Origin: Nonomuraea rubra | Lineage (GTDB): Bacteria; Actinomycetota; Actinomycetes; Streptosporangiales; Streptosporangiaceae | Reading direction: 5' to 3' | Assembly: GCF_014207985.1 (NCBI RefSeq) | Contig: NZ_JACHMI010000001.1 | Coordinates: 9,407,001 to 9,471,000, forward strand | DNA: 64,000 bases | Shown here: positions 13,269 to 45,594 of the stretch, piece after piece | How positions within the stretch are numbered: position 1 is the stretch's first letter | Layout: the number at the start of each line of letters is the position of its first letter | The notes under the pieces: generated by a model | Databases searched by the model: none | What the model was told of the DNA's origin: nothing | Seen by the model: the letters and a program-made list of their open reading frames with translations, nothing else | Translations under genes and position numbers: made by a program

Positions 13269-14981
13269 TCAGCCGGTGTAGCCGACCGCCGTGTAGTCGT
13301 AGTACTTGTAACCGCGCGCGCCCCAGTTGGCGAGCGTCTTCTTCACGCCCCAGATGTCAGGACGCTGGTACAGCGGGATGGTGTGCACCATGTCCCAGAC
13401 GAGCTTGTCGGCGGCGTTGGCCTTCTCGATGGCCTTGGCCGGGTCCATCTCGCTCACGGCCTCCTCGATGGCGGCGTCCACGGCCGGGTCGCTGGCCTTG
13501 GGGAAGTTGCTCTCGGAGCCGGTCTTGTAGATCTGGGGCAGGCTGCCGATCGGCAGCGGCGTGCCGATCCAGGAGAACGGCACCAGGTCGAAGTCACCCT
13601 TGATGATGAAGTCGTTGAAGAACTTGTCATCGGGGACCGGGCGGATCGTGATCTTGATCCCGGCCTCCTTGAGCATCGCCTGGGTCAGCTCGCCCTCGGT
13701 CTTCGCGGTGGCGACGCTGGCCGGGATGACGAAGTCGAGCGCGAACTCCTTGCCGTCCTTCTTGCGGTACTCGCCTTCCTGCTTCCAGCCGGCCGCGTCG
13801 AGCAGCTGCTTGGCCTTCTCCAGGTTGTACTTGCCGAGGTCGCCGGAGTTGTCGACGTAGCCCTTGTGGTTGTTCATGAAGACGTGGTTGCCGAGCGTCT
13901 GCAGCGGCCACTCCATGTCCTTCAGGTCGGACTGCGTGATCACGTCACGGTTGATCGCGTACGCGATCGCGTGCCGGACCGACTTGTCCTTCAGGAACTC
14001 GCTGGAGTTGTTGACCGTGATGTGCCGCCAGTTCGGGCTGAGCGCCTTGCGGATCTCCGCGTTCGGCACCTGCTTGGCCCGCTGCAGGTTGGCCGGGTTC
14101 CCCGCCTCGATGTAGGCGGCGTCCAGCTCGCCGTTGGCGAAGGCGTTCACCTCGGCCGAGGCGTCGGCGATGGTCCGGAAGATGATCTTGTCGAGCTTGG
14201 CCTTCCGGCCCCACCACTTGTCGTCACGCACGAGGGTGAGGGTCTTGGTGCCCTCGTCGATGCTCTCGACCTTGAAGGGACCCGCGGTGGCGGGGATCTT
14301 CTGGTTGTAGTCCTTGTCGAACGCGTCGGGCGTCTCGAGGTGCGCGGCGGGGATGAGGTGCGCGGTGCCCCGGTTGAACAGGCCCTGCCACTCCGGGTAC
14401 GGCTTGGCGAAGGTGATGATGCCGACCTTGTCCGAGTCGCCCTTCTTCACCGACTCGATCCGGTCCCAGCCGTCGGTGGAGGCCGGCTTGTACTTCTTGT
14501 CCTTGCCGTTCATGGCCTTCCAGGAGGCCTCGAGGTCCTTCCAGGTCATCGGCGTGCCGTCGGACCAGGTGGCCTTCTCGTTGATGGTGTAGGTGACGAC
14601 CTGCTTGCCGTCCACCATCTCGTTCTTCACGTCCGTGACGTAGTCGGCGTTCGGCGTGAACTCGGCGTTCTCGTCGGCCATCATGAGCTGCGGCAGGACG
14701 GGGTCGAGCATGGTCGCCGTGTCCGCCTGGTTGCCGTCCACGTGGTACGGGTTCCACTGGGTCGGCCACTGGCCGATCGCCACGGTCAGCGTGCCGCCAT
14801 CCTTGACCTGCTCGTAAGGCACCTCGTTGATGGCGATGGCCGGGGTCTCCGCCATCTGCTGCTGCGCCTGCTGCGACTTCTCGGCGGTCGGCTGCTTGCT
14901 CTCGGAACCGCCACCGCCACACGCCGCCACGGCCATGGCCAGGACCGCCAGCCCAGCGGCCGCACGGTAATGAACCTTCAC
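13269..14981 (-). CDS. Family 5 ABC solute-binding lipoprotein
   Basis: The 570-residue lipoprotein (lipobox LAMAVAACGGGG at about residues 13-24) has the family 5 extracellular binding-protein fold: GGTLTVAIGQWPTQWNPY near the N-terminus and TYTINEKATWSDGTPMTWKDLEAS in the signature region. This family binds di- and oligopeptides, nickel or, in several actinomycetes and thermophiles, oligosaccharides. GTG start 14981 overlaps the stop of the ATPase gene (GTGA) and has AGGAGG upstream. It is the last gene of the operon, unlike most such systems, where the binding protein comes first. Its C-terminus is complete and the terminator follows directly. Confidence 0.9.
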   Translation of the reverse strand: MKVHYRAAAGLAVLAMAVAACGGGGSESKQPTAEKSQQAQQQMAETPAIAINEVPYEQVKDGGTLTVAIGQWPTQWNPYHVDGNQADTATMLDPVLPQLMMADENAEFTPNADYVTDVKNEMVDGKQVVTYTINEKATWSDGTPMTWKDLEASWKAMNGKDKKYKPASTDGWDRIESVKKGDSDKVGIITFAKPYPEWQGLFNRGTAHLIPAAHLETPDAFDKDYNQKIPATAGPFKVESIDEGTKTLTLVRDDKWWGRKAKLDKIIFRTIADASAEVNAFANGELDAAYIEAGNPANLQRAKQVPNAEIRKALSPNWRHITVNNSSEFLKDKSVRHAIAYAINRDVITQSDLKDMEWPLQTLGNHVFMNNHKGYVDNSGDLGKYNLEKAKQLLDAAGWKQEGEYRKKDGKEFALDFVIPASVATAKTEGELTQAMLKEAGIKITIRPVPDDKFFNDFIIKGDFDLVPFSWIGTPLPIGSLPQIYKTGSESNFPKASDPAVDAAIEEAVSEMDPAKAIEKANAADKLVWDMVHTIPLYQRPDIWGVKKTLANWGARGYKYYDYTAVGYTG

Positions 14982-17047
14982 TCTTCCTCCTGATTGTCCG
15001 AGGCCGTGATGACCTCGATCTCCTCCGCGTAGTGGCAGGCCGCGCCGTGGTCGACGGTGTTGGCCAGCCGGGCCACCGAGGGCTCCTCCTCCACACACAG
15101 CCGCCGCTCCGCCTCACTGAGCCGGGCGAACTTCGGGCAGCGGGTGCGGAACCTGCATCCGGACGGCGGGTCCGCCGGGCTGGGCAGGTCGCCTTCGAGC
15201 AGGATGCGCTTGCGGGTGCGCTCCATCTCGGGATCGGGCAGCGGGATCGCCGACAGCAATGCCTGCGTGTACGGATGCGCGGGGTGGTCGTAGACGCTCT
15301 CGACCGCCCCGATCTCCGCGATCCTGCCCAGGTACATGACGGCCACCCGGTCGGCCAGATGTCTGACGACGGCCAGGTCGTGCGCCACGAACAGATAGGA
15401 CAGGCCCAGCCTGTTCTTCAGCTCCTCCAGCAGGTTGATCACACCCGCCTGGATGGAGACGTCCAGCGCGGACACCGGCTCGTCCAGCACCAGCACCTTC
15501 GGTTCCAGCGCCAGCGCGCGGGCGATGCCGATGCGCTGCCGCTGGCCGCCGGAGAACTGCTGCGGGTAGCGCTCGGCGTGCTCCGGCGCCAGCCCGACCA
15601 GTTGCAGCAGCTCCGCGACCTTGTCCTTGACGTCCTTCTTGCCGTGCGCGCGCAGCGGCTCGGCGATGATGTCGCCGACCGGCATGCGCGGGTCGAGCGC
15701 GGCCATCGGGTCCTGGAAAACAATCTGCAGGTCCCCGCGCAGCGCCTTGCGCGCCGCCCTGTCCAGCTTGGCGCTGTCCTTGCCGAGCACGACCACGCGC
15801 CCGCCCTGCGGCGGCTCCAGCTGCATGATCTGCTGCAGCGTGGTGGTCTTGCCGCAGCCGGACTCGCCGACCAGGGCCAGGGTCTCGCCCTGGGCGATGT
15901 CGAGGGTGATGCCGTCCACCGCGTACACGGTGCCGACGCGGCGCTTGAAGATCGCGCCCTTCATCAGCGGGTAGTGCCGCTTCATGTCGTCGAGCTCCAG
16001 CACGGTGGCGCGCTCGGCGCGCGGCACCCGTACGACGTCGCTCGCCGGGATGACCGGCACCGGGAACACGTCCGCGCCGGACAGGCCCTTGTGCTCGATC
16101 TCGTGCGCGCGGATGCAGGCCACGTGCCGCCCGCCGGTGATGGGGATCAGCGGCGGCTCCTCGTCATCGCACATGTCCACCTTCATCGGGCAGCGCGGCG
16201 CGAACGGGCAGCCCGGCGGCAGCGCTGCCGGCGAGGGCGGGTTGCCCTCGATCGGCACCAGCGCGCCCTCCTCGCCGTCGATCCTCGGGATCGAGGCGAG
16301 CAGACCCATGGTGTACGGCATCCGCGGCCGGTAGTAGATGTCGTCCACGGGGCCCTGCTCGACGGGCCGGCCCGCGTACATGACGAGCACCCGGTCGGCC
16401 ATGCCCGCGATGACGCCCAGGTCATGGGTGATCATCACGATTCCGGCGCCGGTCTCCTGCTGCGCGGTCTTGAGCACCTCCAGGACCTGCGCCTGGATGG
16501 TCACGTCCAGCGCGGTGGTCGGCTCGTCGCAGATCAGCAGGTCGGGGTCGTTGGCGATGGCCATGGCGATCATCGCGCGCTGCCGCATGCCGCCGGAGAA
16601 CTCGTGCGGGAACGCCTTGGCCCGCAGGTTCGGGTTCGGGATGCCGACGAGGTCGAGCAGCTCGACGGCGCGCCTGGCCGCCTTGTCCTTGGCCAGCTTC
16701 TGGTGCACGCGCACGGCCTCGGCGATCTGGTCGCCGATGGTGTAGACGGGAGTGAAGGCCGACAGCGGATCCTGGAAGATCATGCTGATGGCCTTGCCGC
16801 GGACCTTGACCAGGTCCTCCTCGCGCCTGCCGAGCAGCTCCTGCCCGTGCAGCATGACCGAGCCGCTGACCACGGCGTTCTTCGGCAGCAGGCCCATGAC
16901 GGCCAGCGACGTCACGGACTTGCCCGAGCCGGACTCGCCCACGATGCCGAGCACCTCGCCGCGCTCGACCTCGTAGCTGACGCCGCGCACGGCCTCGATG
17001 CCGCCGGGGAAGGTGACGTTGAGGTCCCTGACCTCCAAGATGCTCAC
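14978..17047 (-). CDS. Dpp/Opp-type ABC ATPase with two fused nucleotide-binding domains
   Basis: The 689-residue protein carries two complete ATPase domains. The first has Walker A GESGSGKS at about residue 37, signature FSGGMRQRAMIAMA and Walker B LLICDEPTTALD. The second has Walker A GESGCGKTT, signature FSGGQRQRIGIARA and VLVLDEPVSALD. Each is followed by the oligopeptide transporter C-terminal region with its cysteine cluster (CPFAPRCPM; CRFRTRCPK), which in Opp/Dpp systems can bind an iron-sulphur cluster. It thus fuses the D and F subunits. It overlaps its neighbours on both sides by 4 bp (GTGA). Confidence 0.94.
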   Translation of the reverse strand: MSILEVRDLNVTFPGGIEAVRGVSYEVERGEVLGIVGESGSGKSVTSLAVMGLLPKNAVVSGSVMLHGQELLGRREEDLVKVRGKAISMIFQDPLSAFTPVYTIGDQIAEAVRVHQKLAKDKAARRAVELLDLVGIPNPNLRAKAFPHEFSGGMRQRAMIAMAIANDPDLLICDEPTTALDVTIQAQVLEVLKTAQQETGAGIVMITHDLGVIAGMADRVLVMYAGRPVEQGPVDDIYYRPRMPYTMGLLASIPRIDGEEGALVPIEGNPPSPAALPPGCPFAPRCPMKVDMCDDEEPPLIPITGGRHVACIRAHEIEHKGLSGADVFPVPVIPASDVVRVPRAERATVLELDDMKRHYPLMKGAIFKRRVGTVYAVDGITLDIAQGETLALVGESGCGKTTTLQQIMQLEPPQGGRVVVLGKDSAKLDRAARKALRGDLQIVFQDPMAALDPRMPVGDIIAEPLRAHGKKDVKDKVAELLQLVGLAPEHAERYPQQFSGGQRQRIGIARALALEPKVLVLDEPVSALDVSIQAGVINLLEELKNRLGLSYLFVAHDLAVVRHLADRVAVMYLGRIAEIGAVESVYDHPAHPYTQALLSAIPLPDPEMERTRKRILLEGDLPSPADPPSGCRFRTRCPKFARLSEAERRLCVEEEPSVARLANTVDHGAACHYAEEIEVITASDNQEEE

Positions 17048-17886
17048 GAGTTGCTCCCCGGGTCGAGTGCGTCACGCAGGCCGTCGCCGATCAGGTTCAC
17101 GCTGAGCACCAGGGCGACCAGCAGGCCCGCGGGGAAGGCGAACAGCCAGGGGTAGCCGGTGGCGTTGCGCGAGCCCTCCGCGATCAGCGTGCCGAGCGAG
17201 ACGTCCGGCGGCTGGATGCCGAAGCCGAAGAAGGACAGCGCCGCCTCGCCGATGATCGCGCCACTGACGTTGAGCGTGGCGTCGATGATCAGCAGGGAGG
17301 ACAGGTTCGGCACGATGTGCCGCAGGATGATCTTCCAGCGCGGGATGCCCATGTAGACGGCGGCCAGCACGTACTCCCGCTCGCGGAGCGAGAGCGTCAT
17401 GCTGCGCACCACCCTGGAGGTGATCATCCAGGAGAACGCGGCCAGCAGGGCCACGAACCACAACCACGACGCGCCCTCCCTGAGCCGGGGCGAGACGATC
17501 GCGATGATCAGGAAGCTCGGCAGGACGAGCAGCAGGTCCACGCCCCACATGAGCACCCGGTCCACCCATCCGCCGAAATATCCGGCGAACGCGCCGACGA
17601 TCGCGGCCAGGCCGGTGGAGATGAGGGCGACCAGCAGGCCGATCACGATCGACTTCTGCATGCCGCGCAGGGTGACCGCGTACATGTCCTGGCCGATGGC
17701 GGTCGTGCCCCACCAGTGGTCGGCGTCGGGGGCGGACATGAAGGCCATGAAGTCCTTGTCCGTCCAGTCGTACGCGCCGAAGAAGGGCCCCACGTACGCC
17801 AGCGCCACCAGCAGGATCAGGGCGACGAAGCCATAGCGGGCCTGCCTGTTGCGCACCAGGCGCCTGAAGACGACTTTCGATCGCAT
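17044..17886 (-). CDS. Dpp/Opp-type ABC permease, C subunit
   Basis: The 280-residue membrane protein has an N-terminal helix (YGFVALILLVALAYVGPFFG), a periplasmic stretch and then five helices. The EAA loop is at REREYVLAAVYMGIPRWKIILRH. The late segment GEAALSFFGFGIQPPDVSLGTLI is the hallmark of DppC/OppC subunits. It pairs with the B subunit encoded just upstream to form the channel of the family 5 transporter. Confidence 0.93.
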   Translation of the reverse strand: MRSKVVFRRLVRNRQARYGFVALILLVALAYVGPFFGAYDWTDKDFMAFMSAPDADHWWGTTAIGQDMYAVTLRGMQKSIVIGLLVALISTGLAAIVGAFAGYFGGWVDRVLMWGVDLLLVLPSFLIIAIVSPRLREGASWLWFVALLAAFSWMITSRVVRSMTLSLREREYVLAAVYMGIPRWKIILRHIVPNLSSLLIIDATLNVSGAIIGEAALSFFGFGIQPPDVSLGTLIAEGSRNATGYPWLFAFPAGLLVALVLSVNLIGDGLRDALDPGSNS

Positions 17887-17887
17887 C

Positions 17888-18865
17888 TCAGCTCACCCGC
17901 ACCCGAGGATCGAGGGCCGCCACCAGCACGTCGGACAGGAACGAGGCGACCAGGATGCACACGGCGGCGAAGAACGTCACCGCGGCGACCGAGTTCACGT
18001 CGTTCTGGTTGATCGAGTCCACGAGCCAGGCGCCCATGCCGTGCCAGGAGAAGATCTTCTCCGTGAACGTCGCGCCCGTGAACATCGTCCCGAACGCGAA
18101 GGCGAAGTACGTGGCCGAGGGGATCAGCGCGGTCCGCAGCGCGTGCTTGAACAGCGCCGTCCTGCGCCGCAGGCCCTTGGCCATCGCGGTCCGCACGAAG
18201 TCCTGGTTCAGCACGTCGAGCATCATGTTGCGCTGGATCCGGCTGTAGAAGGCGATCGAGCCGAGGCTGAGCGAGATCGTCGGCAGGATGAGGTGGTTCA
18301 GCCGGTTGACGAACTGGTCCCAGCCGGACAGCCGCGGGTTGTACTCGCCGGTGTACTCGATGAGCGTGAACCCCAAGCCTCTGTTCAGGTTGTACGTGCC
18401 GATCGCCAGCAGCGTGGCCAGCACGAACACGGGGATCGCCATGATCACGAAGGAGCTGACACCGATTAACCGGTCACTGAGCTTGTACTGCTTCACCGCG
18501 GAGAACGCGCCCAGCCCCACGCCCACGGCGAAACCGAGCAGCGTGCCGATGAGCAGGAGCCGCAGGCTCACCATGATCCGCCGGCCCATCTCCGCGTTGA
18601 CGGAGCCGCCGTTCCAGGTCTTGCCGAAGTCTCCGGTGACGACGCCCGAGGCCCAGGTCGCGTAGCGCTGGAGCACGGGAGTCTTGTCGTTCAGGTTGTA
18701 GTCATCAAGTGTGGCGTCGATGACCTCTTCGGCCACCGGGGGCTGGCGCCCCTCGTACGCGGCCCGCGGGTTCATGGTGGTGGCCGCGAGCATGTACGCC
18801 AAACTGGCCGCGATGGCGACCAAGATCACATTTATTGCCAACCTGCGGAGCAGGTACTTACCCAT
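17888..18865 (-). CDS. Dpp/Opp-type ABC permease, B subunit
   Basis: The 325-residue permease starts MGKYLLRRLAINVILVAIAAS, the usual N-terminal helix of DppB/OppB, and has the EAA loop at QDFVRTAMAKGLRRRTALFKHALR and a C-terminal GATFTEKIFSWHGMGAWLVDSI. ATG 18865 has GGAGAGTG immediately upstream; longer reading frames to 19042 lack an SD. It is the first gene of a four-gene operon (B, C, fused DF, binding protein). The sugar-acid neighbours leave open whether the cargo is a peptide or an oligosaccharide. Confidence 0.92.
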   Translation of the reverse strand: MGKYLLRRLAINVILVAIAASLAYMLAATTMNPRAAYEGRQPPVAEEVIDATLDDYNLNDKTPVLQRYATWASGVVTGDFGKTWNGGSVNAEMGRRIMVSLRLLLIGTLLGFAVGVGLGAFSAVKQYKLSDRLIGVSSFVIMAIPVFVLATLLAIGTYNLNRGLGFTLIEYTGEYNPRLSGWDQFVNRLNHLILPTISLSLGSIAFYSRIQRNMMLDVLNQDFVRTAMAKGLRRRTALFKHALRTALIPSATYFAFAFGTMFTGATFTEKIFSWHGMGAWLVDSINQNDVNSVAAVTFFAAVCILVASFLSDVLVAALDPRVRVS

Positions 18866-19222
18866 CACTCTCCGTTCGCGCTGACCGGGGGCGCAACCTT
18901 CCTGTGGCGGAGAGGCGCCCCCCGCAACGAAAACCCACCTCGCATCGTGAAATGGCAACACGATGTCGGGATGGCGATCAGGGCGCAATATATAAGCAAA
19001 AATATAACAGCAGGAAACGGGACTATATAACGGTAAGGTCACCTACAATAGATCGACATGAGGCTCTCGGCCTCCCGAAAACCGGGCTCGACCTGCGGAA
19101 ACGCCGCTTACCAGAGACCCATGAGACCGCTCCCATATGCCTCTGTGTCACAGAATCCGGACATAAATTGCGAGGCCGACAAAGCCCTCCATATCATATT
19201 GACTTGGTGACGTGTACGCGGG
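18866..19222. other. AT-richer leader/promoter region of the ABC operon
   Basis: This 357-bp gap holds no credible gene. It is clearly richer in A and T than its surroundings between about 18975 and 19060 (aatatataagcaaaaatata and actatataacgg occur there), so the promoter of the minus-strand transporter operon is probably here. I could not fix a single -35/-10 pair. Confidence 0.5.
18943..18965. promoter_or_regulatory. Inverted repeat upstream of the Dpp-type operon
   Basis: CATCGTG (18943-18949) and CACGATG (18959-18965) are perfect inverted 7-mers with a 9-bp spacer, about 80 bp upstream of the permease start. A regulator operator is likely; its regulator is unknown. Confidence 0.4.
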
Positions 19223-20455
19223 TCAGCCGTTCACCGGGGCCCGCGCCGATCCCGTGCCCAGGGCGGCGCGCAGGAAGAAGTCCTCGCCGCCCACCTGGCC
19301 GCCCTTGAGCGCCACCTCCAGCCCGTCGCAGGCGGGGTCGTCCGCGGCCAGCACGCACACCGGCCCGCCGACAGCCAGCGTGCCGGCCACGTCCAGGGCC
19401 CGGGCGCCGAGCGCCGCCACGACCTGGCCGGAGGTGTCGCCGCCCGCCACCACCAGCCGCCGCACCAGCCCGGCCCGCACCGCCGCCGCGGCCACCCGGC
19501 CGAGCAGCTCGCCGACGCCCGCCGGGTCGCGGGACGGGCCGCGCGTCGACTGCACGATGGTGTGCCGGCCCTCGCGCAGGCTCGCCTCGGCGTGCGCGAT
19601 CGCGTCGGGCCCGCCGGCGTCCAGCACGGCCCAGCCCGCCCGCTCGGCCGCGTCGATCTGCCGCGCGGTGACCGGCGAACGGCTCCCCGACACCACCAGC
19701 ACCGGCCCGGCCGCACCGAGCACCACGCTGCCCACGGGCAAGGGCCTGTTGGCGGCCAGAGCCGAGGCGAGGGCGTAGCTGAGGCCGCCTGAGCCGACGC
19801 AGTACAGGGGACTCAGGTCCCGCGCGTCCGCGATCATGAGGGCGCCGAGGGCGCGCAGGTGCTCCTCGGTCATGGCGTCCGCGACGAAGGCCGCGTCCCC
19901 GCCCCGCGCCCGGTACGCCTCCCGCGACGCCCCCGCCGGCAGCCACCCCGTGCGGCCCGCCCCCTGCTCGCCCAGCCGCACCCGCAGATCGGCCTCGGTG
20001 GCCGGGGTGACCGGATGGTCCCGGGCCGGCGGGTGGCGGTCGAGCCTGACCACCTCGTCCCCCGCCCGCACGAAGTGGTTGGCGAACCACGTGTACCGCC
20101 CGAACTCCGGCTGCGCGGCCAGCACGGGCACCGCGCTCCGGGCCAGCCCCTCGCGGTGCAGGGCGGCGACGACCGCCCCGATGCTGCCGGACGCGGGCGA
20201 GGAGTCGAACGTCGAGCAGACCTTGTACTGGACGGCCAGCGGCCCGAGCGCCGCCACGGCCCTGAGGGCGGGCAGCGCCGACGCCACCGGGTCGGCCGAC
20301 GCCCGGGCGGTGGTGGCGACGCCGATGACGTCGTCCCGATCGTGCAGGTACGCGACGTCCGTGACGAGCGACCCGCTCAGCCCGAACCGCCGGAACTGCC
20401 ACAACGCGTCCGTCGCGCCGGTGAAGTCGTCGGCCACGAAGGCGACCAGCGTCAC
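19223..20455 (-). CDS. Four-carbon acid sugar kinase family protein (DUF1537, OiaK/OtnK-like)
   Basis: The 410-residue protein has the two-domain DUF1537 layout: an N-terminal substrate domain beginning LVAFVADDFTGATDALWQF (the D-D-x-T-G-A-x-D motif) with YKVCSTFDSSPASGSIG, and a C-terminal ATP-binding domain with VVSGSRSPVTARQI, VVAGGDTSGQV and ALKGGQVGGEDFF. Known members phosphorylate erythronate, threonate, 3-oxo-tetronates or 3-oxo-isoapionate. GTG 20455 overlaps the stop of the RuBisCO-like gene (GTGA). This kinase plus RuBisCO-like pairing is the one described for 3-oxo-isoapionate kinase and its decarboxylase in D-apionate degradation; the substrate assignment is inference. Confidence 0.88.
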   Translation of the reverse strand: MTLVAFVADDFTGATDALWQFRRFGLSGSLVTDVAYLHDRDDVIGVATTARASADPVASALPALRAVAALGPLAVQYKVCSTFDSSPASGSIGAVVAALHREGLARSAVPVLAAQPEFGRYTWFANHFVRAGDEVVRLDRHPPARDHPVTPATEADLRVRLGEQGAGRTGWLPAGASREAYRARGGDAAFVADAMTEEHLRALGALMIADARDLSPLYCVGSGGLSYALASALAANRPLPVGSVVLGAAGPVLVVSGSRSPVTARQIDAAERAGWAVLDAGGPDAIAHAEASLREGRHTIVQSTRGPSRDPAGVGELLGRVAAAAVRAGLVRRLVVAGGDTSGQVVAALGARALDVAGTLAVGGPVCVLAADDPACDGLEVALKGGQVGGEDFFLRAALGTGSARAPVNG

Positions 20456-21699
20456 CGGGCCACCACCCCGCCGAAGTGCTCCAGCGCCCGGACCAGCTCC
20501 GGCGAGTCCACCTCGTGCAGCGGCACGCCCGCGGCCGTCGCCGCCCACGCCTGCCGGATGCTCGTGATCCCGGCCGCCGGCCCGTCCGGGTGGCCGAGCA
20601 CACCCCCGCCGGCCAGCACCAGCAGGTCCTCGGTCCCCGTACGCTCCAGCGTGACCGGCGCGGTCCCCGCCCACTGCGCCGACGACAGCACCGGCAGGCA
20701 GGGGAACCCGCCGAGCAGCGGCGTACGCACGGCCTCGACCATCGCCGCCACGTCGTCGTCGGTGACGTAGAACTTGCTGTGGAACCCCCCGCAGTGCAGG
20801 TGGTCGATCCCGGTGAGCCGGGCCAGCTTCTGGTAGGCGACGTGCCCGATCCCCAGCCCCGCGTGCCTGGCCAGCGCCCCGATGCCGGTGACGTGCGCGT
20901 GGATGGGCACCCTGGCGTGCCTGCGCAGCATGGCCACGGCCGGGAAGCCGACGACGTTGAGGTTGACCATGACGCAGGTCCCGCCGGCGGCCACGACCAG
21001 GTCGTGGTTGCGCAGCATGCGGTCGGGCTCGTCGCTGATGTTGAAGGCGTACATGGGCCGCCGCCCCGTACGCCGCTCCACCTCGTCGAGCGCGGCCGTC
21101 ACGGCCCGGACGCGCTGCGGCAGGGGCGCGGGCGGGCAGTCGGCGTTCACCTCGTCGTCCTTGATGAAGTCGGCCCCTGCCAGCCCCAGCTCCAGCACCA
21201 GGTCCACGTAGTCGGACGGGCGCAGGCCGACGTTGGGCTTGACGATCGTGCCGATCAGCACCCCGGACGGCCGCCCGACGAGCCGCCGGGTGCCGTCCAC
21301 GGCGAACCCCGCCGGCAGGTACGCGTCCCCGAACGCGGCGGGCAGCTCCAGGTCGACCAGCTTGAGCCCGGCCAGCTCGCGCAGCTCGTAGAGGTTGCCC
21401 GCGACCACGGGGAAGAGGTTGGTCAGCGACGGCCCGGTGTTGTCCAGCGGGAAGCCGATGCGGACGAGGGCGGCGTGCAGCGGCTGGTCGCCGCGCGAGC
21501 CCGGCAGGGCCTCGGTGATCGGGGCGGGGATCTCGGTCATGTCGAGCACGACCGCGCTGTGCCGGGCGCGCAGCTCGTCTGTCTCGCCGGCGACGCTGAC
21601 GAACGTGCCGGTGCTCTGCTCCCCCGCGATCGCGCTCACGGCCTGCTCCAGCGGCAGGCGGGTCACCACCTGGTACGTCGCCACGGTCAGGTCACGCAT
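20452..21699 (-). CDS. RuBisCO-like protein (OiaX/OiaT-like candidate)
   Basis: The 415-residue protein belongs to the RuBisCO large-subunit superfamily. The C-terminal TIM barrel shows GTIVKPNVGL (Lys154; true RuBisCO has KPK) and GADFIKDDEVN, which keeps the carbamylatable lysine and metal ligands Lys180, Asp182 and Glu183. A histidine in HAHVTGIGAL and the loop HCGGFHSKF also correspond to active-site segments. The KPN in place of KPK and the altered loop 6 argue against CO2 fixation. Related proteins act as enolase/isomerase in methionine salvage or as decarboxylase or transcarboxylase on 3-oxo-isoapionate 4-phosphate. The neighbouring DUF1537 kinase favours the latter. Confidence 0.9.
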   Translation of the reverse strand: MRDLTVATYQVVTRLPLEQAVSAIAGEQSTGTFVSVAGETDELRARHSAVVLDMTEIPAPITEALPGSRGDQPLHAALVRIGFPLDNTGPSLTNLFPVVAGNLYELRELAGLKLVDLELPAAFGDAYLPAGFAVDGTRRLVGRPSGVLIGTIVKPNVGLRPSDYVDLVLELGLAGADFIKDDEVNADCPPAPLPQRVRAVTAALDEVERRTGRRPMYAFNISDEPDRMLRNHDLVVAAGGTCVMVNLNVVGFPAVAMLRRHARVPIHAHVTGIGALARHAGLGIGHVAYQKLARLTGIDHLHCGGFHSKFYVTDDDVAAMVEAVRTPLLGGFPCLPVLSSAQWAGTAPVTLERTGTEDLLVLAGGGVLGHPDGPAAGITSIRQAWAATAAGVPLHEVDSPELVRALEHFGGVVAR

Positions 21700-22345
21700 G
21701 CAGCTCCTTCGCCAGGTGCTCCATGGCCAGGGGCGGGCTGGCCAGGACGGGGACGGGCACCTCGACCGTCCCGGCCACCCGCGCCATCGACGCCTGGGCC
21801 AGCACGATCACGTCCACCTGCCCGCCCAGCTCGCTCAGCGCCCCGGCCACGCGGGCGTCGTGGGTGGCGGCGTCGCCGCTCATCAGCGCCTCGAACGCCC
21901 CCTCGCACAGCCGGGCCTCCAGCGAGATCTCCGCCCCGGCGGCGAGGGCGCGCCGCCGTACGAGGTCGGCGGTCGGTTCGAGGGTGGTGGACAGGGTGGC
22001 GAGCACGCCGACGCGGCGGCCGAGCGCGACCGCGCTGTCGGCCATCGGCCGGTCGACGCGGAGCACGGGCACGCCGGTCAGCGGCTCGGCGGCCTCCACG
22101 GCAGGGCCGATCGAGGAGCAGGTGACGAGGATGTGCGAGGCGCCGGCGGCCTCGGCGGAGCCGATGTGGCCGGCGACGCGGCGGGCGGTGGCGGGGGTGA
22201 GCCGGCCCGCGGCGATGGTGTTCTTGATCAGGCTGTCGTCGACGATGTTGAACGTCTCGACGCCGGGCAGGTGTCGCGCGCACAGCTCGGCGAACACCGG
22301 CACCAGCGTGGCCGAGGTGTGGACGAGTCCGAGGGTTGCCGTCAA
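21692..22345 (-). CDS. Aspartate/glutamate racemase superfamily protein
   Basis: The 217-residue protein has the two-cysteine active-site architecture of the Asp/Glu/hydantoin racemase superfamily: the first Cys in ILVTCSSIGP and the second in EARLCEGAF. TTG at 22345 overlaps the GntR stop (TTGA) and is taken as start because no ATG or GTG with better position exists. It ends 8 bp inside the RuBisCO-like gene. Some relatives racemise amino acids, others isomerise maleate or cleave arylmalonates. In this operon a role in isomerising or decarboxylating a branched or keto acid is conceivable, but it is not determined. Confidence 0.8.
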   Translation of the reverse strand: MTATLGLVHTSATLVPVFAELCARHLPGVETFNIVDDSLIKNTIAAGRLTPATARRVAGHIGSAEAAGASHILVTCSSIGPAVEAAEPLTGVPVLRVDRPMADSAVALGRRVGVLATLSTTLEPTADLVRRRALAAGAEISLEARLCEGAFEALMSGDAATHDARVAGALSELGGQVDVIVLAQASMARVAGTVEVPVPVLASPPLAMEHLAKELHA

Positions 22346-23043
22346 GGCCGCTCCATCCGGGGTTGGGTGAACAGGTCGTGCCAGACCTGGAAGTGGTCGT
22401 CGCTGGCCTGCCCGGCGGCGTCCGCGTCGCCGGCGAGCAGCGCCTCGTACAGGGGCCGGTGGGCGGCCACCGACACCTCCTTGTCGCGGGGGTGGGTCTT
22501 CAGCCGGTCGCGGCGCTGGCGGACGGCGCGGAAGAGCACGCCGGTCATCGCGTCGGCGAAGAAGGTGAGCGCGGGGTTGCCGGTGGCGTGCAGCAGCGCC
22601 TGGTGGAAGGCGAAGTCGGCGCGGTCGATGTCCTCGGCCGTGGCGGCGGCCTCCATGTCGGCCAGGGCCCTGCCGACGTGGGCGACGGCGACCGGGTCGC
22701 CCTTGCGCGCGGCCTCCCTGGCGGCCTGGCGTTCGAGCGCGACGCGTACGGAGTGCAGGGACTCGATGCTCAGGTGGCTGGCCGACAGGGCCAGGTCGAG
22801 CGCCGCCTCCAGCCCTTGCGGGTCGAGCCGCTGGACGTACGTGCCGGAGCCCTGGCGCCTGCTCAGCACGCCGAACGCGTCGAGCAGCCGCAGGCGGTCG
22901 CGCAGCGCGGTGCGGCTGACGCCGAGGCGCTCGGCCAGCTCGCGCTCGGGCGGCAGCCTGGCGCCCTCGCCGAGGTCCCGGATCAGCCCGGACAGAGCGT
23001 CGGAGACGGGGTCGACGGCGATCACCTCGATTGGTCGTACCAT
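22342..23043 (-). CDS. GntR/FadR-type regulator of the RuBisCO-like operon
   Basis: The 233-residue regulator has a winged helix (about residues 10-70, with RLPPERELAERLGVSRTALRDRLRLLDAFGVLSRRQGSGTYV) and a helical FCD effector domain with the metal-binding pattern around DFAFHQALLHATGNPAL and a late histidine pair. FCD regulators of this group respond to organic or sugar acids. It is the first gene of its operon, and its start codon overlaps one arm of a perfect inverted repeat made of two TGGTnnnACCA sites, so it should be autoregulated. Confidence 0.93.
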   Translation of the reverse strand: MVRPIEVIAVDPVSDALSGLIRDLGEGARLPPERELAERLGVSRTALRDRLRLLDAFGVLSRRQGSGTYVQRLDPQGLEAALDLALSASHLSIESLHSVRVALERQAAREAARKGDPVAVAHVGRALADMEAAATAEDIDRADFAFHQALLHATGNPALTFFADAMTGVLFRAVRQRRDRLKTHPRDKEVSVAAHRPLYEALLAGDADAAGQASDDHFQVWHDLFTQPRMERP

Positions 23044-23064
23044 TCACCGGAATGGTACGACCAA
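23031..23064. promoter_or_regulatory. Double GntR (FCD) operator
   Basis: TTGGTCGTACCATTC (23031-23045) and GAATGGTACGACCAA (23050-23064) are perfect inverted 15-mers with a 4-bp spacer. Each arm contains its own TGGTnnnACCA palindrome, centred 21 bp apart, which is two helical turns. TGGTnnnACCA resembles UxuR/ExuR-type sites. It covers the start codon of the 23043 GntR gene. Confidence 0.8.
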
Positions 23065-23079
23065 AGTACCGAAATGTCA

Positions 23080-23094
23080 CTTCATCAGATGAAG
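23080..23094. promoter_or_regulatory. Second GntR-type palindrome
   Basis: CTTCATC-A-GATGAAG is a perfect 7-bp inverted repeat around a single A, a form typical of FCD-type GntR operators. It lies 42 bp upstream of the 23136 GntR gene and is probably that regulator's own site. Confidence 0.6.
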
Positions 23095-23135
23095 GGTCTA
23101 GGAAAACGGGCGCGCGCGGGATAGCGTGCGGAGCC

Positions 23136-23864
23136 GTGGCAACTGATCCCCAGAGGGACTCGGCCAGGAATGTCCAGGTCGTGCAGGCCCTCGGCGCCCG
23201 CATCGTCGGCGGCTCGCTCGCCCCCGGCACGTCCATCCCCATCGAGGAGGAGCTCGTCGGCGAGCTCGGCGTGGGCCGCTCCGCGGTGCGGGAGGGCGTC
23301 AAGGTGCTGGCCGGCAAGGGCCTGCTGGAGACCAGGAGGAGCGCGGGCACGATCGTGCGCCCCCGCGAGTCCTGGAACCTGCTCGACGCCGACGTGCTGA
23401 GCTGGCGCTTCGAGCCCGAGCCCCGGCCCGAGGACATCAGGGTGCTGGCCGATCTGCGGGTCGCGCTGGAGCCCGGGGCGGCCAGGGTGGCGGCCGAGCG
23501 GGCCGACGCCGCGGCCGTCCGGCGCATCGACGAGGCCCTGGCCGCGCTGTACGCCACCGCCGACGACCCCGAGCCGTTCATCGAGGCCGACCTGGCCTTC
23601 CACCAGGCGGTGTTCGCCGCCGCCGACAACGACCTCCTGCTCTACGTCTACGACATGATCAGCATCGCCCTGCGGTCCGTGCGCCAGGTGCACACCCGCT
23701 CGGTGGCGCACAACAAGGAAACGCTGCCCGGCCACGAACGCGTGGCCCAGGCGATCAGGCGCCGCCACCACCGCAAGGCCGAGGAGGCCATGCGCACGGT
23801 GGTCGAAGTGGCCCGCGCCGACGCCGAGCAGCATGCCAGTGATCTGGCACGTCTCTGCTGTTAG
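23136..23864 (+). CDS. GntR/FadR-type regulator (second)
   Basis: The 242-residue protein has a GntR winged helix (QALGARIVGGSLAPGTSIPIEEELVGELGVGRSAVREGVKVLAGKGLLETRRSAGTIV, given here in segments of the family consensus) and an FCD domain with DLAFHQAVFAAADNDLLLY and the downstream GHERVAQAI histidine. Its start is uncertain: GTG 23136 has GGAG only 2 bp away, so leaderless or altered initiation is possible. It precedes the crotonase and CoA-transferase genes on the same strand and is divergent from the other GntR, so it probably controls the 23880-28606 operon. Confidence 0.9.
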   Translation: MATDPQRDSARNVQVVQALGARIVGGSLAPGTSIPIEEELVGELGVGRSAVREGVKVLAGKGLLETRRSAGTIVRPRESWNLLDADVLSWRFEPEPRPEDIRVLADLRVALEPGAARVAAERADAAAVRRIDEALAALYATADDPEPFIEADLAFHQAVFAAADNDLLLYVYDMISIALRSVRQVHTRSVAHNKETLPGHERVAQAIRRRHHRKAEEAMRTVVEVARADAEQHASDLARLCC

Positions 23865-29465: not shown

Positions 29466-31883
29466 GTGACCAGCGATGGATACACCCGGCGCGGAGTGCT
29501 CGCCACCGGGTTAGGCGCGGCGGCCGGAACCCTGATCGTGAGCGGTGCCGACGCCCTCCCGGCATGGGCCGACGGCAGGAAGGCCGGCCCGCTGACCCTC
29601 TGGTACACCCGCCCGGCCGAGGTCTGGTTGGAGGCGCTGCCGGTGGGCTGCGGGCGGCTGGGCGCCATGGTGTTCGGCGGCGTGGCCACCGAACGGCTGC
29701 AGCTCAACGAGGACAGCATCTGGGCCGGCGGGCCGCACAACTACGACAACCCGGGCGCTCTGGAGGCGCTGCCGGAGATCAGGCGGCTGGTCTGGGAGGA
29801 CAAGTGGCAGGCCGCCCAGAACCTGGCGGATGAGAAGATGCTCGGCACGCCCAGCGAGCAGGCGTGGTACCAGGTGCTCGGCGACCTCACGCTGACCTAT
29901 CCCGGCTCGGCCGAGTTCACCGACTACCGGCGCGAGCTCGACCTGACGAACGCCGTCACCAGCGTGCGGTTCACCCGTGACGGCGTGCGGCACGAGCGCG
30001 AGGTCTTCGCCAGCAACCCCGACCAGGTCATCGTGCTGCGGCACACCGCGGACCAGCGCGGCTCGATCTCGTTCACGGCGGCCTTCTCCAGCCCGCAGCA
30101 GTCGAGCCCGGCCGGCGCCGGACCGGCCACGATCGCGCTGAACGGCGTCAGCGGCCAGACCGAGGGCATGCCCGGAGAGGTACGCTTCCAGGCGCTGGCC
30201 AGGGCCGAGGCCAAGGGCGGCACCGTGCGCGTCGAAGGCGGCACGCTGGTCGTCGAGGGCGTGGACGAGGTCACCCTGCTGATCTCCATGGGCAGCAGCT
30301 ACCGCAGCTACAAGGACGTCGGCGGCGATCCGGCGCAGGTCGCGGGCCGCCATCTGACGAAGGCGGGCGGGCGGCCGTACGAGGTGCTGAAGCGCAGGCA
30401 CGTCCAGGACTACCAGCGGCTGTTCGGGCGGGTCTCGATCGACCTGGGCACCTCGGAGGCGGTGGCGCTGCCCACGGACGAGCGCATCCAGCGCAAGCAG
30501 CTCGACACGGACCCGCAGCTCGCCGCCCTGTACTTCCAGTACGGCCGCTACCTGCTGATCTCCTGCTCCCGCGCCCCCGGCTACGCCGCCAACCTCCAGG
30601 GCATCTGGAACGACTCCCTCGAACCGGCGTGGCAGTCGAAGTACACCATCAACATCAACCTGGAGATGAACTACTGGCCGGCCGCGCCCGGCAACCTGAT
30701 CGAGTGCATGGACCCGCTCTTCGACCTGATCAAGGACCTGTCGGAGACCGGCGCCCGCACGGCGAAGGACACCTACGGGGCACCCGGCTGGGTCGCCCAC
30801 CACAACACCGACGGCTGGCGCGGCACGGCCCCCGTGGACTTCGCCTTCTACGGCGTGTGGCCGACCGGCGGGGCGTGGCTGTGCCTGACGCTCTGGGAGC
30901 ACTACCAGTACACCGGGGACGAGCGGCGCCTGCGCGAGCACTTCCCGCTGATCAAGGGCTCGGTGGAGTACTTCCTGGCCACCCTGCAGACCGATCCGAG
31001 GTCCGGCTACCTGGTGACCAACCCCTCGCACTCCCCCGAGGTCGGGCACCACGAGGACAACGGCGAGAACGTCAGCATCTGCGCCGGGCCCACCATGGAC
31101 ATGCAGATCCTGCGCGACCTGTTCACCGCCTTCGAGGAGGCGTCCGAGGTGCTCGGGGCGGAGCCGGAGCTGCGCCGGCAGGCCGTGGAGGCGCGGGCGC
31201 GCCTCGTCCCCAACCAGGTGGGGCATCTCGGACAGATCCAGGAGTGGCAGGAGGACTACCGGGGCGACGCCGCGCTGTCGCGCAGCCGGCACATCTCCCA
31301 CCTGTGGGGGCTGTTCCCCAGCCACCAGATCGACCCCCGGCTGTCGCCCGACCTGGCGGCGGCGGCCCGGCGCACGCTGGAGCTGCGGGGCGAGGCGGGT
31401 GCCGGGTGGTCGCTGGCCTGGAAGATCAATTTCTGGGCGCGGCTGCTGGACGCGGCCGAGGCGTACAAGCGGCTGAGCAACCTGCTGGTGCCCGCGCGTA
31501 CGGCGCCGAACATGTTCGACCTGCACCCGCCGTTCCAGATCGACGGCAACTTCGGCGGCACCTCGGGCATCACCGAGATGTTGCTGCAGAGCCACGGGGA
31601 CCAGGTACACCTGCTGCCCGCCCTGCCCCCCGCCTGGCCGGCGGGGTCGTACCGGGGGCTGCGGGCCCGGGGCGGGTTCGAGGTGGACGTGGAGTGGAGC
31701 GGTGGGGGGTTGCGGCGCGGGCGGGTACGCTCCGACCTGGGCCGCAGGCTCACCCTCCGCACCCCGTCGGCCGTGACGGTCACGGAACGCGGCCGGCCGG
31801 TGAAGGCCGAACGCCCGGAGCCGGGCGTGCTCGTCCTCGACACCCGCCGGGGCGCCACCTACGACCTCACCCCGTCCGTCTGA
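29466..31883 (+). CDS. Secreted GH95 alpha-L-fucosidase/alpha-L-galactosidase
   Basis: The 805-residue enzyme has a Tat signal ([16 protein letters not shown]) and starts its mature part with [40 protein letters not shown], the typical N-terminal beta domain of GH95. The catalytic alpha/alpha barrel has [46 protein letters not shown] and the C-terminal [15 protein letters not shown]. Known activities are alpha-1,2-L-fucosidase and alpha-L-galactosidase, the latter on rhamnogalacturonan II. Which one applies cannot be told from sequence alone. GTG 29466 has AGGAG nine bases upstream. Confidence 0.93.
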
Positions 31884-31891
31884 CGCCGCTC

Positions 31892-31921
31892 CCGCCCCCT
31901 GGCTACGGCGCCGGGGGGCGG
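31892..31921. terminator. Hairpin between GH95 gene and GntR gene
   Basis: CCGCCCCC (31892-31899) pairs with GGGGGCGG (31914-31921) around a 14-nt loop. It lies at the junction of two convergent genes and overlaps the end of the regulator gene. Confidence 0.4.
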
Positions 31922-36144: not shown

Positions 36145-36146
36145 CC

Positions 36147-42609: not shown

Positions 42610-45594
42610 GTGAACGACCCGACCCAGCACGGCCTTCCTCCCTTCCCTACGCCCCGCCCCGGCGCCCGCCCGGCCCGGTTCGCGGTGACGCGGCGCGGGT
42701 TTCTCGTGCTCGGCGCCACGACCGCCGCCACGCTCGCCCTCGACGGCCTCCCCTCCTCCCCCGCCACGGCCACCGCAGCACCCTCGGCCGCCTGGTTCGC
42801 CAGGCCGCGGCGCGAGGTGCGCCCGATGGTGCGCTGGTGGTGGCCCGACGCCCACGTCGATCCCGCCGAGATCAGGCGGGAGGTGGACCAGCTCGCCGAC
42901 GCCGGCTTCGGCGGCGCGGAGATCGCGGCCGTGCACCACAGCATCCGCGACAAGTCCGTGCTCGACCCGGCGGGCCACGGCTGGGGCACCCCCGCCTGGA
43001 ACACCGCCGTCGAGGCCGCGCTCGACCAGGCGGCCCGGCGCGGCCTCACCATCGACCTCACGATCGGCCCGGCCTGGCCGGCCGCCATCCCCACCATCAC
43101 CCCCGCCGGCCCCGCGTCGGCCAAGGAACTGGCCCACGGCTCCGTGACCGTCCCCGCCGGAACCACCTACTCCGGCCCGGTGCCACCCCCCGTCATCCCC
43201 ACCGGCGAACCCGGCAGCGAGCTGCTGCTCGTCCAGGCGGCCAGGCTCGACCCCGCCCACTCGACCCGCGACGAGACCGGCCTCGACCCCGCCTCCCTCC
43301 GGACCGTCACCGCCACGGACGGGCAGACGATCACCTGGGCCGCCCCCGCCGACGGCGACTGGCTGCTCCTCTCCTACTGGCAACGCGGCTCCGGCCAGCG
43401 CCCCGAGTCGGGCCCGCACACCGCCCCCGAGGCGTACGTCGTGGACCACTTCAGCCGCGCCGGCACCCAGGCGGTGATCGACTACTGGGAGTCGGAGCTG
43501 CTCACCCCCGCCATCCGCAAGCTGCTCAGGCGCGCCGGCGGAGCGCTGTTCGAGGACTCCATCGAGATCGAGACCGACGCCCTGCCGTGGACCCCGGACC
43601 TGCCCTCCGAGTTCGAGCGGCGCCGCGGCTACCCGCTGGCGTCCATCCTCCCGGTGGTCATGCTCGCGAACGAGGACCCGGTCTTCGCCTACGACGCCGC
43701 CCGCACCCGGCACGCCCGCAAGGACTACTGGGACACGGTGTCCGAGCTGTTCAACGAGCACCACTTCACCGCGCTGCGCGAGTGGGCGCACTCGATCGGC
43801 CTGCGGTTGCGGGCGCAGCCGTACGGGCTGCAGACCGACGCCATCGAGGCCGCGGCCATCCTGGACGTGCCGGAAGGGGAGTCGCTGGGGTTCAAGAACC
43901 TCGACGACTACCGGTGCCTGGCCGGGGGCCGGGATCTGGCCGGGCGGGAGGTGCTGTCCTGCGAGGCGGGCGCGTACCAGGGCGGGGCGTACACGACGAC
44001 GTGGAAGAAGCTGCTGCGCACGCTGGGCGGGGCGTACGCGGCCGGGCTCAACCAGACGGTGCTGCACGGCTTCTCGTACGCGGACGCGCCCGGCGCCGCG
44101 TGGCCGGGGTTCGCGGCGTTCACGCCGTACGGCGGAACGGTGGGGTACGCGGAGTCGTGGGGCCCGCGCCAGCCCACCTGGGATCACATCACCGACATTT
44201 CCACCTATTTCGCGCGCCTCCATCTGGTCATGCGGCACGGCGAGCCTCGCGCTGACGTGGCCGTCCTCCGGCAGACCGGCTACACCAAGACCGGCATCGG
44301 GGCCTCCTGGTTCACCGCGAGCGGCATCCCGACCGGCTGGACCCACCAGTTCGTCAGCGGGCCCCTGCTCGACCTGCCCGCCGCGCGGGTCTCGGACGGG
44401 CGGCTGGGCCGGCCCGCGTACAAGGTGCTGTTCGTCGAGGGCGACAAGTTCTACTCGGGCGAGTGCACGATGACCGTCGGCGTGGCCCGGCGCCTGCTCG
44501 AGTACGCCGGCGCCGGCCTGCCCGTCATCCTGCTAGGCGACTGGCGTAACGCCTCGGTGCCGGGCCTGCCCCAGGACGGCGAGAACGAGCGGCTGCGCGC
44601 GATCCTGTCGGACCTGCTCGCACGTCCCACCACGCGGATGATCGCCACCGCCGCGGACGTGCCCGCCGCCCTCGCCTCCCTCGGCGTCCACCCCGATGTC
44701 CGGTACGCGGTCCCGTCCACCCTGCTCACCATGCGCCGCGTGGCCGGCGACGTGGACTACTACTACCTGTGCAACGGCAAACACCAGGAGAACGCCAAAC
44801 CGCCCGTGACCGCGATCGACCACGAGGTCACGCTGGCCCGCACCAGCCGGGACAGCGTCCCGTACGTGCTCGACCCCTGGACGGGCCGCGCCTCCCGCCT
44901 CGCCCGGTACGCGGAGGAGGAGGACGGCATCCGCCTGCGCGTGACCCTGCAGCCGGGCCAGGCGAGGATCGTGGCCCTCGGCCGGCCCGGCCTGTTCGGC
45001 GACCGCACGGGGCGCCGCGCGCACGCCACCAGCACGAACGCCGACCTGGTGAGGTACGCCGCGAGCCGCCTGCTGGTGCGGGCCGCCAAGGCGGGCGTCT
45101 ACACCACCACCCTCTCCGACGGCCGCACGCTCACCACCGAGATCGGCCCCGTCCCCGCCCCCGTCGAGCTGCACACCTGGCACCTCCGGGTGGAGGACCG
45201 GGGCCCCGCGCCGGCCGTGCACTCCCTGCGGCTCGACCGGCTCGCGCCCTGGCCGGAGATCCCCGGGCTGGCCGACGTGTCCGGCGTCGGCACGTACACG
45301 ACCACCGTCGACGCGGACGGTCCCGCCTACCTGGAGCTGGGAGAGGTGAGCGACACCTGCCGGGTGAGCGTCAACGGCCGGCGCCTGGACCCGGTGGACC
45401 AGATCCACCCCGTCCTCGACCTCGGCCCGCACCTCCGCCGCGGCTCGAACACCATCCAGGTGGAGGTGGCGACCCCGCTCGGCAACCGGCTCAGGGTGGC
45501 GGACCCGGCCGTGTACGGCGGGCTGGCGCGGCAGCCGTACGGGCTGGTCGGCCCGGTCAGGCTGGTCCCGTACCGCGAGGCGCCTGTCAGGTGA
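42610..45594 (+). CDS. Secreted GH106 alpha-L-rhamnosidase-like
   Basis: The 994-residue protein has a Tat signal (VTRRGFLVLGATTAATLAL, near residues 26-45). The mature part starts with RPMVRWWWPDAHVDPAEIRREVDQLADAGFGGAEIA, typical of the GH106 TIM-barrel N-terminus, followed by GALFEDSIEIE, which carries a conserved glutamate, and EVLSCEAGAYQGG. C-terminal beta-sandwich domains include the galactose-binding-like LADVSGVGTYTTTVD with YLELGEVSDTCRVSVNGRRL. Family members remove terminal alpha-L-rhamnose from rhamnogalacturonans. GTG 42610 has GGAG five bases upstream. It follows the terminator of the ABC operon, so it may have its own promoter or depend on read-through. Confidence 0.88.
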   Translation: MNDPTQHGLPPFPTPRPGARPARFAVTRRGFLVLGATTAATLALDGLPSSPATATAAPSAAWFARPRREVRPMVRWWWPDAHVDPAEIRREVDQLADAGFGGAEIAAVHHSIRDKSVLDPAGHGWGTPAWNTAVEAALDQAARRGLTIDLTIGPAWPAAIPTITPAGPASAKELAHGSVTVPAGTTYSGPVPPPVIPTGEPGSELLLVQAARLDPAHSTRDETGLDPASLRTVTATDGQTITWAAPADGDWLLLSYWQRGSGQRPESGPHTAPEAYVVDHFSRAGTQAVIDYWESELLTPAIRKLLRRAGGALFEDSIEIETDALPWTPDLPSEFERRRGYPLASILPVVMLANEDPVFAYDAARTRHARKDYWDTVSELFNEHHFTALREWAHSIGLRLRAQPYGLQTDAIEAAAILDVPEGESLGFKNLDDYRCLAGGRDLAGREVLSCEAGAYQGGAYTTTWKKLLRTLGGAYAAGLNQTVLHGFSYADAPGAAWPGFAAFTPYGGTVGYAESWGPRQPTWDHITDISTYFARLHLVMRHGEPRADVAVLRQTGYTKTGIGASWFTASGIPTGWTHQFVSGPLLDLPAARVSDGRLGRPAYKVLFVEGDKFYSGECTMTVGVARRLLEYAGAGLPVILLGDWRNASVPGLPQDGENERLRAILSDLLARPTTRMIATAADVPAALASLGVHPDVRYAVPSTLLTMRRVAGDVDYYYLCNGKHQENAKPPVTAIDHEVTLARTSRDSVPYVLDPWTGRASRLARYAEEEDGIRLRVTLQPGQARIVALGRPGLFGDRTGRRAHATSTNADLVRYAASRLLVRAAKAGVYTTTLSDGRTLTTEIGPVPAPVELHTWHLRVEDRGPAPAVHSLRLDRLAPWPEIPGLADVSGVGTYTTTVDADGPAYLELGEVSDTCRVSVNGRRLDPVDQIHPVLDLGPHLRRGSNTIQVEVATPLGNRLRVADPAVYGGLARQPYGLVGPVRLVPYREAPVR

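Follow-up and report, generated by a model that had tools for sequence, protein, structure and literature searches.

Which compound is broken down by an operon that joins a RuBisCO-like protein (RLP) and a DUF1537 kinase to an Asp/Glu racemase-like protein? The question is raised by a 64,000-nucleotide stretch of DNA from the soil bacterium Nonomuraea rubra (contig NZ_JACHMI010000001.1, positions 9,407,001 to 9,471,000), hereafter the window, whose source genome measures 12.9 Mb and whose RLP has Nonomuraea proteins as its nearest named homologues. A FadR-type GntR regulator, the racemase-like protein, the RLP and the kinase are encoded in this order on the minus strand (Table 1), and the gene overlaps described in the initial annotation of the sequence, TTGA between the GntR and racemase-like genes, 8 bp between the racemase-like and RLP genes and GTGA between the RLP and kinase genes, were all recovered. 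The Pfam domains of the four proteins exceeded their curated cut-offs. Considering the gene neighbourhoods, family assignments and phylogenies presented here, we suggest that the operon may serve to degrade, by a short pathway, an acidic branched sugar of rhamnogalacturonan-II (RG-II), most probably L-aceric acid, a reading that we regard as evenly balanced.

The RLP matched PF00016 (Table 1) and PF02788 (34 bits) and carries the metal site K180/D182/E183, which places it in the RuBisCO-like protein superfamily; its further active-site residues are K154-P155-N156, H302 and K309. The KPN in place of KPK beside an intact carbamate/metal site, noted in the initial annotation of the sequence, is indeed present at positions 154 to 156. 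Because the corresponding column reads KPN, KPS, KPG or KPA throughout 55 aligned rows, loss of the second lysine is the rule in this group of RLPs and not a special mark. The kinase exceeded the cut-offs of both SBD_N and NBD_C, as expected of a DUF1537 acid-sugar kinase. Scored against curated models, the RLP reached 379 bits with OiaX (NF042437) and the kinase 211 bits with OiaK (NF042436), each under a cut-off of 700, and no OiaT model was among the NCBIfam matches of the RLP. By their nearest curated models, the two proteins are classed by sequence as an RLP and a kinase of the 3-oxo-isoapionate type (OiaX/OiaT and OiaK). Methionine salvage, the placement that had been named as the one to look out for, was ruled out by the scores, as two models of the methionine-salvage enolase MtnW gave 108 and 137 bits (cut-offs 513.6 or 409) against the 379 bits of OiaX, and the RLP thus lies outside that group. 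In the 55-row tree, it fell inside an actinobacterial clade with Mycobacterium-type proteins, and the five named OiaX formed their own clade, with support of 100/100, that excluded it; the RLPs of the Bacteroidota and Verrucomicrobiota modules described below were sister to the OiaX clade (97/95). The H302 position is Gln in all five named OiaX, whereas its His is retained in the RLPs of the window and of the modules.

In the apiose pathway, ApnO produces 3-oxo-isoapionate, and Carter et al. are said to have described the OiaK/OiaX and OiaK/OiaT pathways for this compound, in connection with D-apiose, in 2018. A further source on these two pathways is PMC6302742. The window operon shares with these systems the adjacency of RLP and DUF1537 kinase, a GntR-type (NanR) regulator that lies nearby in several of them, and the metal-site and H/K active-site residues of the RLP; it differs in adding the racemase-like gene and in the absence of ApnO and ApnL from the genomes that carry the module. 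Using the ApnO of a Rhizobium OiaX operon as a query, we found no ApnO in 35 of 36 genomes with the racemase-like gene (10 from Nonomuraea, the window genome among them, and 26 from Bacteroidota, including that of the Draconibacterium locus L112), and found it in all five control plasmids. ApnL gave no match over its cut-off in the same 36 genomes, the window genome included, and three of four control records exceeded the cut-off. Furthermore, apionate genes were located near 11 of 19 RLP loci without the racemase-like gene (the short fragment L218 left out) and near none of the 80 loci with it, in which nothing exceeded 45 bits and two loci contained a match of 42–45 bits to an ApsD-type oxidoreductase. 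TPI and RpiB were absent from the module loci, which is weak evidence, as among the five named OiaX loci only one has them within the sequence fetched.

These results bear on a D-apiose/D-apionate branch in which an OiaK-like kinase would act on 3-oxo-isoapionate and the RLP on its 4-phosphate, with the racemase-like gene as an accessory. OiaK and OiaX are the nearest curated models, some loci have apiosidase-like genes close to the module, as does the region beyond the window, and low scores do not exclude such a branch: in Microvirga, an RLP and a kinase that adjoin an ApnL over its cut-off reached 453 (OiaX) and 575 (OiaK) bits, both under 700, so the sub-cut-off scores are not decisive alone and mark a weak difference from OiaX and OiaK. 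However, the gene core contains neither a dehydrogenase nor a lactonase, a transketolase/FGGY route of the apiose type is encoded elsewhere in the window and also next to several modules, and ApnO and ApnL are missing from 35 of the 36 genomes, for which last reason 3-oxo-isoapionate or apiose was dropped as the leading interpretation; we consider this branch improbable. The 3-oxo-isoapionate pairing first assigned to the RLP and kinase was thus supported for the families and not for the substrate. The racemase-like gene, for which the initial annotation knew of no place in that pathway, proved to accompany a distinct RLP module consistently. The gene set is conserved as a unit, and the alternative offered by the initial annotation, a variant pathway or another acid sugar, is the one favoured by the evidence.

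When bacterial genomes were searched with an alignment of the racemase-like family, 268 loci were obtained, the best 80 of which were kept; these belong to Nonomuraea, Bacteroidota and Verrucomicrobiota, with 71 outside Nonomuraea. The racemase-like gene was accompanied by an RLP in 75 of the 80 loci, by a DUF1537 kinase in 77 and by both in 74. Three of the five loci without RLP are cut by a contig end, and the other two, L071 (Nonomuraea terrae) and L112 (Draconibacterium), have neither RLP nor kinase; one further locus, L138, contains the RLP and no kinase. All 71 loci outside Nonomuraea carry a gene for an SBF-type Na+ symporter, a transporter of the Na+/organic-acid type whose best curated match was the pantoate transporter PanS (210 bits, under the cut-off of 400), and 54 of them show the strict order RLP-kinase-racemase-SBF. 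The same order occurs on a plasmid of Rufibacter tibetensis, where a pectinesterase and a GH28 gene share its 24.6-kb stretch, and in L216, a third actinobacterial locus, RLP, kinase and a more distant racemase-like gene stand in a row. Among 47 Nonomuraea genomes, the RLP was present in 10, each of which has the orthologue of the racemase-like gene, and an eleventh (G407) has the racemase-like gene alone. Because the racemase-like proteins of Nonomuraea and the other phyla are 64–75% identical despite different RLP clades, the racemase-like gene has been joined to separate RLP lineages. Judged from gene neighbourhoods, it is a constant partner of a distinct RLP module in three phyla; chance neighbourhood was ruled out by the 74 of 80 loci with both partners, the separate RLP lineages and the near-perfect profile within the genus. 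Searches of open-licence PMC papers brought up no description of an RLP/kinase/racemase module or of aceric acid catabolism. In L071, the racemase-like gene stands between intact flanks, and RLP and kinase are missing between it and the ABC permease. On a circular Croceibacterium plasmid (L054/L055), an RLP-kinase pair follows a distant GH127-like gene, and a racemase-like gene lies about 32 kb from the pair, next to an MFS transporter.

The surroundings of the module point to RG-II. In Bacteroidota and Verrucomicrobiota, the modules sit among GH127, GH106, GH78-like and GH2 genes. A GH127 gene was found in 40 of the 71 loci outside Nonomuraea, and it is the same-strand gene directly upstream of the RLP in 27 of the 64 loci in which the gene call kept the RLP. 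Thirty-four of the 40 GH127 proteins exceed 500 amino acids, and all 34 are 47–58% identical to PDB entry 5mqo and 32–36% identical to a GH127 arabinofuranosidase. We take 5mqo to be BT1003; the neighbouring entry, 5mqp, is named BT_1002, and the GH106 next to the module was nearest to 5mqm, presumably BT0986. Bacteroides RG-II degradation was reportedly described by Ndeh et al. in 2017. L-Aceric acid is 3-C-carboxy-5-deoxy-L-xylose, and we know of no other RG-II acid with its carboxylate on a tertiary carbinol, as RLP chemistry would need. BT1003 is an aceric acid hydrolase according to two papers (PMC10850190, PMC5698469). A BT1003-like GH127 likewise flanks the modules of Bacteroidota and Verrucomicrobiota; work on BT1003 and Bacteroides concerns the release of the sugar, whereas the module would serve the catabolism of aceric acid itself.

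The association extends beyond the loci. In each of the 33 tested Bacteroidota genomes with the racemase-like gene there is a GH127 that shares at least 52% identity with that of Niabella (724–1181 bits), with stops in the copies of three of them (G469, G471 and G473); the 33 include seven from a draw across the phylum, chosen by the racemase-like gene without looking for RLP or kinase. Of 395 evenly drawn Bacteroidota genomes, 8, the draw centre included, have the racemase-like gene and 25 have this GH127, which is present in 8 of 8 racemase-positive versus 17 of 387 racemase-negative genomes (Fisher p 8e-11, or 1e-9 without the draw centre, values that are too small since the genomes are related). 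The dependence is one-way: GH127 occurs without the racemase-like gene, and the racemase-like gene without GH127 was not seen in the tested Bacteroidota genomes.

The racemase-like protein belongs to the Asp/Glu racemase family by its domain (PF01177, over the cut-off) and by its fold, compared with PDB structures. C76 is kept and aligns with a Cys of 2eq5, whereas the site of the second catalytic Cys is occupied by Gln184, in a stretch that aligns weakly (4.7 bits); Gln is invariant there in a 43-row alignment, and the protein thus does not have the two catalytic cysteines of a two-base racemase at these sites. The tree of the racemase-like proteins has poor internal support. The protein differs from Asp/Glu/hydantoin racemases and arylmalonate decarboxylase in this replacement of the second catalytic Cys and in having an RLP and a sugar-acid kinase as genomic partners. 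In addition, its paralogues in Nonomuraea adjoin an FGGY-type sugar kinase in all four loci examined, of nine found, a further difference from those enzymes that also counts in favour of the aceric acid reading. In loci L219–L221 and L223, such paralogues and the FGGY-type kinase next to them may form another isomerase-kinase pair, and a DeoR-like gene lies alongside.

Another pectin acid sugar, or a breakdown product, might instead be the substrate, with the racemase-like protein acting as a true epimerase or as a decarboxylase, like arylmalonate decarboxylase, which also works with a single Cys, and not as an aldose-ketose isomerase. We regard this as rather unlikely, as arylmalonate decarboxylase retains the second Cys and C76 is the first, a GH127 of the BT1003-like cluster adjoins the RLP in the 27 of 64 loci mentioned above, and aceric acid is the sole RG-II acid known to us with a tertiary-carbinol carboxylate.

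For L-aceric acid as the substrate, we propose the following scenario. The racemase-like protein, with C76 as its single catalytic Cys, would convert aceric acid from the aldose to the 2-ketose. Since this ketose would be the methyl homologue of 3-oxo-isoapionate, the DUF1537 kinase would phosphorylate its terminal hydroxyl, as OiaK does. The RLP, if OiaT-like, would then move the carboxylate and hydrolyse the product to 3-phosphoglycerate and lactate; if OiaX-like, it would decarboxylate only, giving a 5-deoxypentulose 1-phosphate. The operon would be held in check by a GntR repressor until the substrate releases it. Such a route needs no oxidation step and fits a core of RLP, kinase, racemase-like protein and transporter without an oxidoreductase. 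The complete form of this route, so far undescribed, in which a single-base isomerase and a kinase precede an RLP that decarboxylates, recarboxylates and hydrolyses to 3-phosphoglycerate and lactate, with the isomerase joined to at least two RLP lineages, is possible and is put forward tentatively; the same caution covers, as part of that joint reading, an isomerase of racemase fold that has lost one of two catalytic cysteines. Few plant polysaccharides are as complex as RG-II, and little is known of what becomes of its rarest sugars once they are released. If the proposal is true, a three-enzyme aceric acid route would fill this gap, extend the substrate range of the RuBisCO superfamily, bring a new reaction type to the Asp/Glu racemase fold and assign a function to many proteins whose sole annotation is 'aspartate/glutamate racemase family protein'. 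Of 7,999 candidates scored for the racemase-like family, 7,906 proteins had E ≤ 1e-5, only part of which can belong to the module.

In Nonomuraea, the operon lies in a pectin region that includes, within the window, GH95, a sugar ABC transporter, a GH141-type protein, GH106 and isomerase-like, transketolase and FGGY genes and, beyond it, an apiosidase-like protein, GH28 and GH127. One clade of Nonomuraea GH127 was present in all 10 genomes with the RLP versus 1 of the 37 others (G436), which speaks for a link with the operon. Its distance from the RLP is about 62 kb in the genome of the window and 55–89 kb in four others, and in five it stands on another contig. Its presence in G430, G435 and G440 was predicted beforehand and found, and its occurrence in G436 was unexpected. 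The first ABC permease follows downstream of the racemase-like gene in seven of nine other Nonomuraea loci, whereas a contig end truncates the remaining two; L062 has it about 6 kb further, at the locus edge.

Several observations weigh against the aceric acid proposal. Its strongest argument rests on other phyla, because Nonomuraea is without a BT1003-like GH127, and this is its main weak point: the seven linked Nonomuraea GH127 proteins compared were 32–34% identical to BT1003 and 35–37% to the arabinofuranosidase, and are not BT1003-like, and a search of 30 Nonomuraea genomes with the Niabella GH127 found no BT1003-like protein (best 339 bits). In the other phyla, no GH127 was found within the fetched flank in 31 of the 71 loci, and co-occurrence with RG-II enzymes cannot single out aceric acid, since RG-II degraders carry many such enzymes together; only adjacency does so. 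As to the enzymes, we know of no sugar isomerase with the Asp/Glu racemase fold, and C147 is also near-invariant and may be a second catalytic residue. The tree makes the Bacteroidota RLPs sister to the decarboxylase OiaX, so the OiaT-type outcome may be less settled, and RLP position 270, which corresponds to RuBisCO R295, is Val, Leu or Met in the Nonomuraea RLP and its nearest, Mycobacterium-type relatives and Arg in the other aligned members of the group. Furthermore, 23 of 72 loci have, a few genes upstream, an oxidoreductase of a different kind (Gfo/Idh/MocA), and an oxidation step would be possible there; Spirosoma (G481), the exception in the ApnO search, has besides the module an ApnO homologue and an ApnL-like protein that scores below the cut-off; and L112 carries the racemase-like gene and SBF with no RLP or kinase within 10 kb.

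The Nonomuraea operon may alternatively have diverged, the racemase-like gene having joined a resident RLP-kinase pair that acts on a substrate different from that of the Bacteroidota module. Val270, set against the Arg of the Bacteroidota RLPs, the distinct RLP lineages, an ABC transporter in place of SBF and the lack of a BT1003-like GH127 are consistent with such a divergence. It nonetheless seems unlikely, as the racemase-like protein is 64–75% identical across the groups and the operon goes together with a pectin region containing GH127, GH28 and apiosidase-like genes in Nonomuraea as well.

The operon GntR gene was found in four of nine other Nonomuraea loci, and a second, divergent GntR gene in all nine. 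The operon GntR gene has at its start two TGGTNNNACCA sites with a spacing of 21 bp; the motif has three matches in the window versus 0.43 expected, a number reached in 2 of 100 shuffles, and among the nine other Nonomuraea loci it was present in all four that have the operon GntR and absent from the five that lack it. Control by GntR, as first supposed, thus fits the window operon and is not general.

Table 1. Coordinates of the operon, its putative operator and other features in the window
Feature	Position	Strand	Basis or remark
ABC solute-binding protein	within open reading frame 13269-15098		by eye
Dpp/Opp-type ABC transporter, candidate importer, downstream of the operon on the same strand	14978..19042	-	Pfam
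Parts of the Dpp/Opp ABC transporter	fused ATPases 14978-17047; permeases 17044-17886, 17888-19042	-	
DUF1537 acid-sugar kinase, 410 amino acids, GTG start, OiaK-like	19223..20455	-	SBD_N 140 bits, NBD_C 85 bits; OiaK model 211 bits
RLP, 415 amino acids, OiaX/OiaT group	20452..21699	-	RuBisCO_large 194 bits; tree; active-site columns
Asp/Glu racemase-like protein, 217 amino acids, TTG start, proposed acid-sugar isomerase	21692..22345	-	Pfam Asp_Glu_race 85 bits
FadR-type GntR/FCD regulator, first operon gene	22342..23043	-	Pfam GntR 50 bits, FCD 88 bits
TGGTNNNACCA site pair, putative GntR operator overlapping the proposed start codon	23032-23042, 23053-23063	.	
Divergent GntR/FCD regulator, true start probably inside the open reading frame	23031..23864	+	Pfam; kept in 9/9 other Nonomuraea loci
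GH95, surrounding pectin region	29466..31883	+	
GH106-type alpha-L-rhamnosidase	42610..45594	+	Pfam; distant from solved structures, best 74 bits
TIM-barrel isomerase-like protein, split transketolase and FGGY kinase; apiose-type route apart from the operon	57351..61731	+	

The gene row from TIM-barrel isomerase-like protein to FGGY kinase has the make-up of an apiose isomerase/kinase/transketolase route, and a sugar-binding regulator (61721-62737) stands next to it. A split transketolase and an FGGY kinase are of the kind used for apiose (PMC13001218). Elsewhere in the window, positions 31903-32976 encode an HTH_29/HTH_32 N-terminal part joined to a GntR/FCD regulator, and a long protein at 36174-38054 (start set by eye), lying between ABC permeases and an RraA-like aldolase, belongs to an open reading frame (35355-38054) without a Pfam match. 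The RraA-like aldolase itself (38085-38852) is followed by a GH141-type parallel beta-helix protein (40555-42468), before which a second look-alike, recognised by eye, lies within the open reading frame 38357-40672 (stretch 38850-42468).

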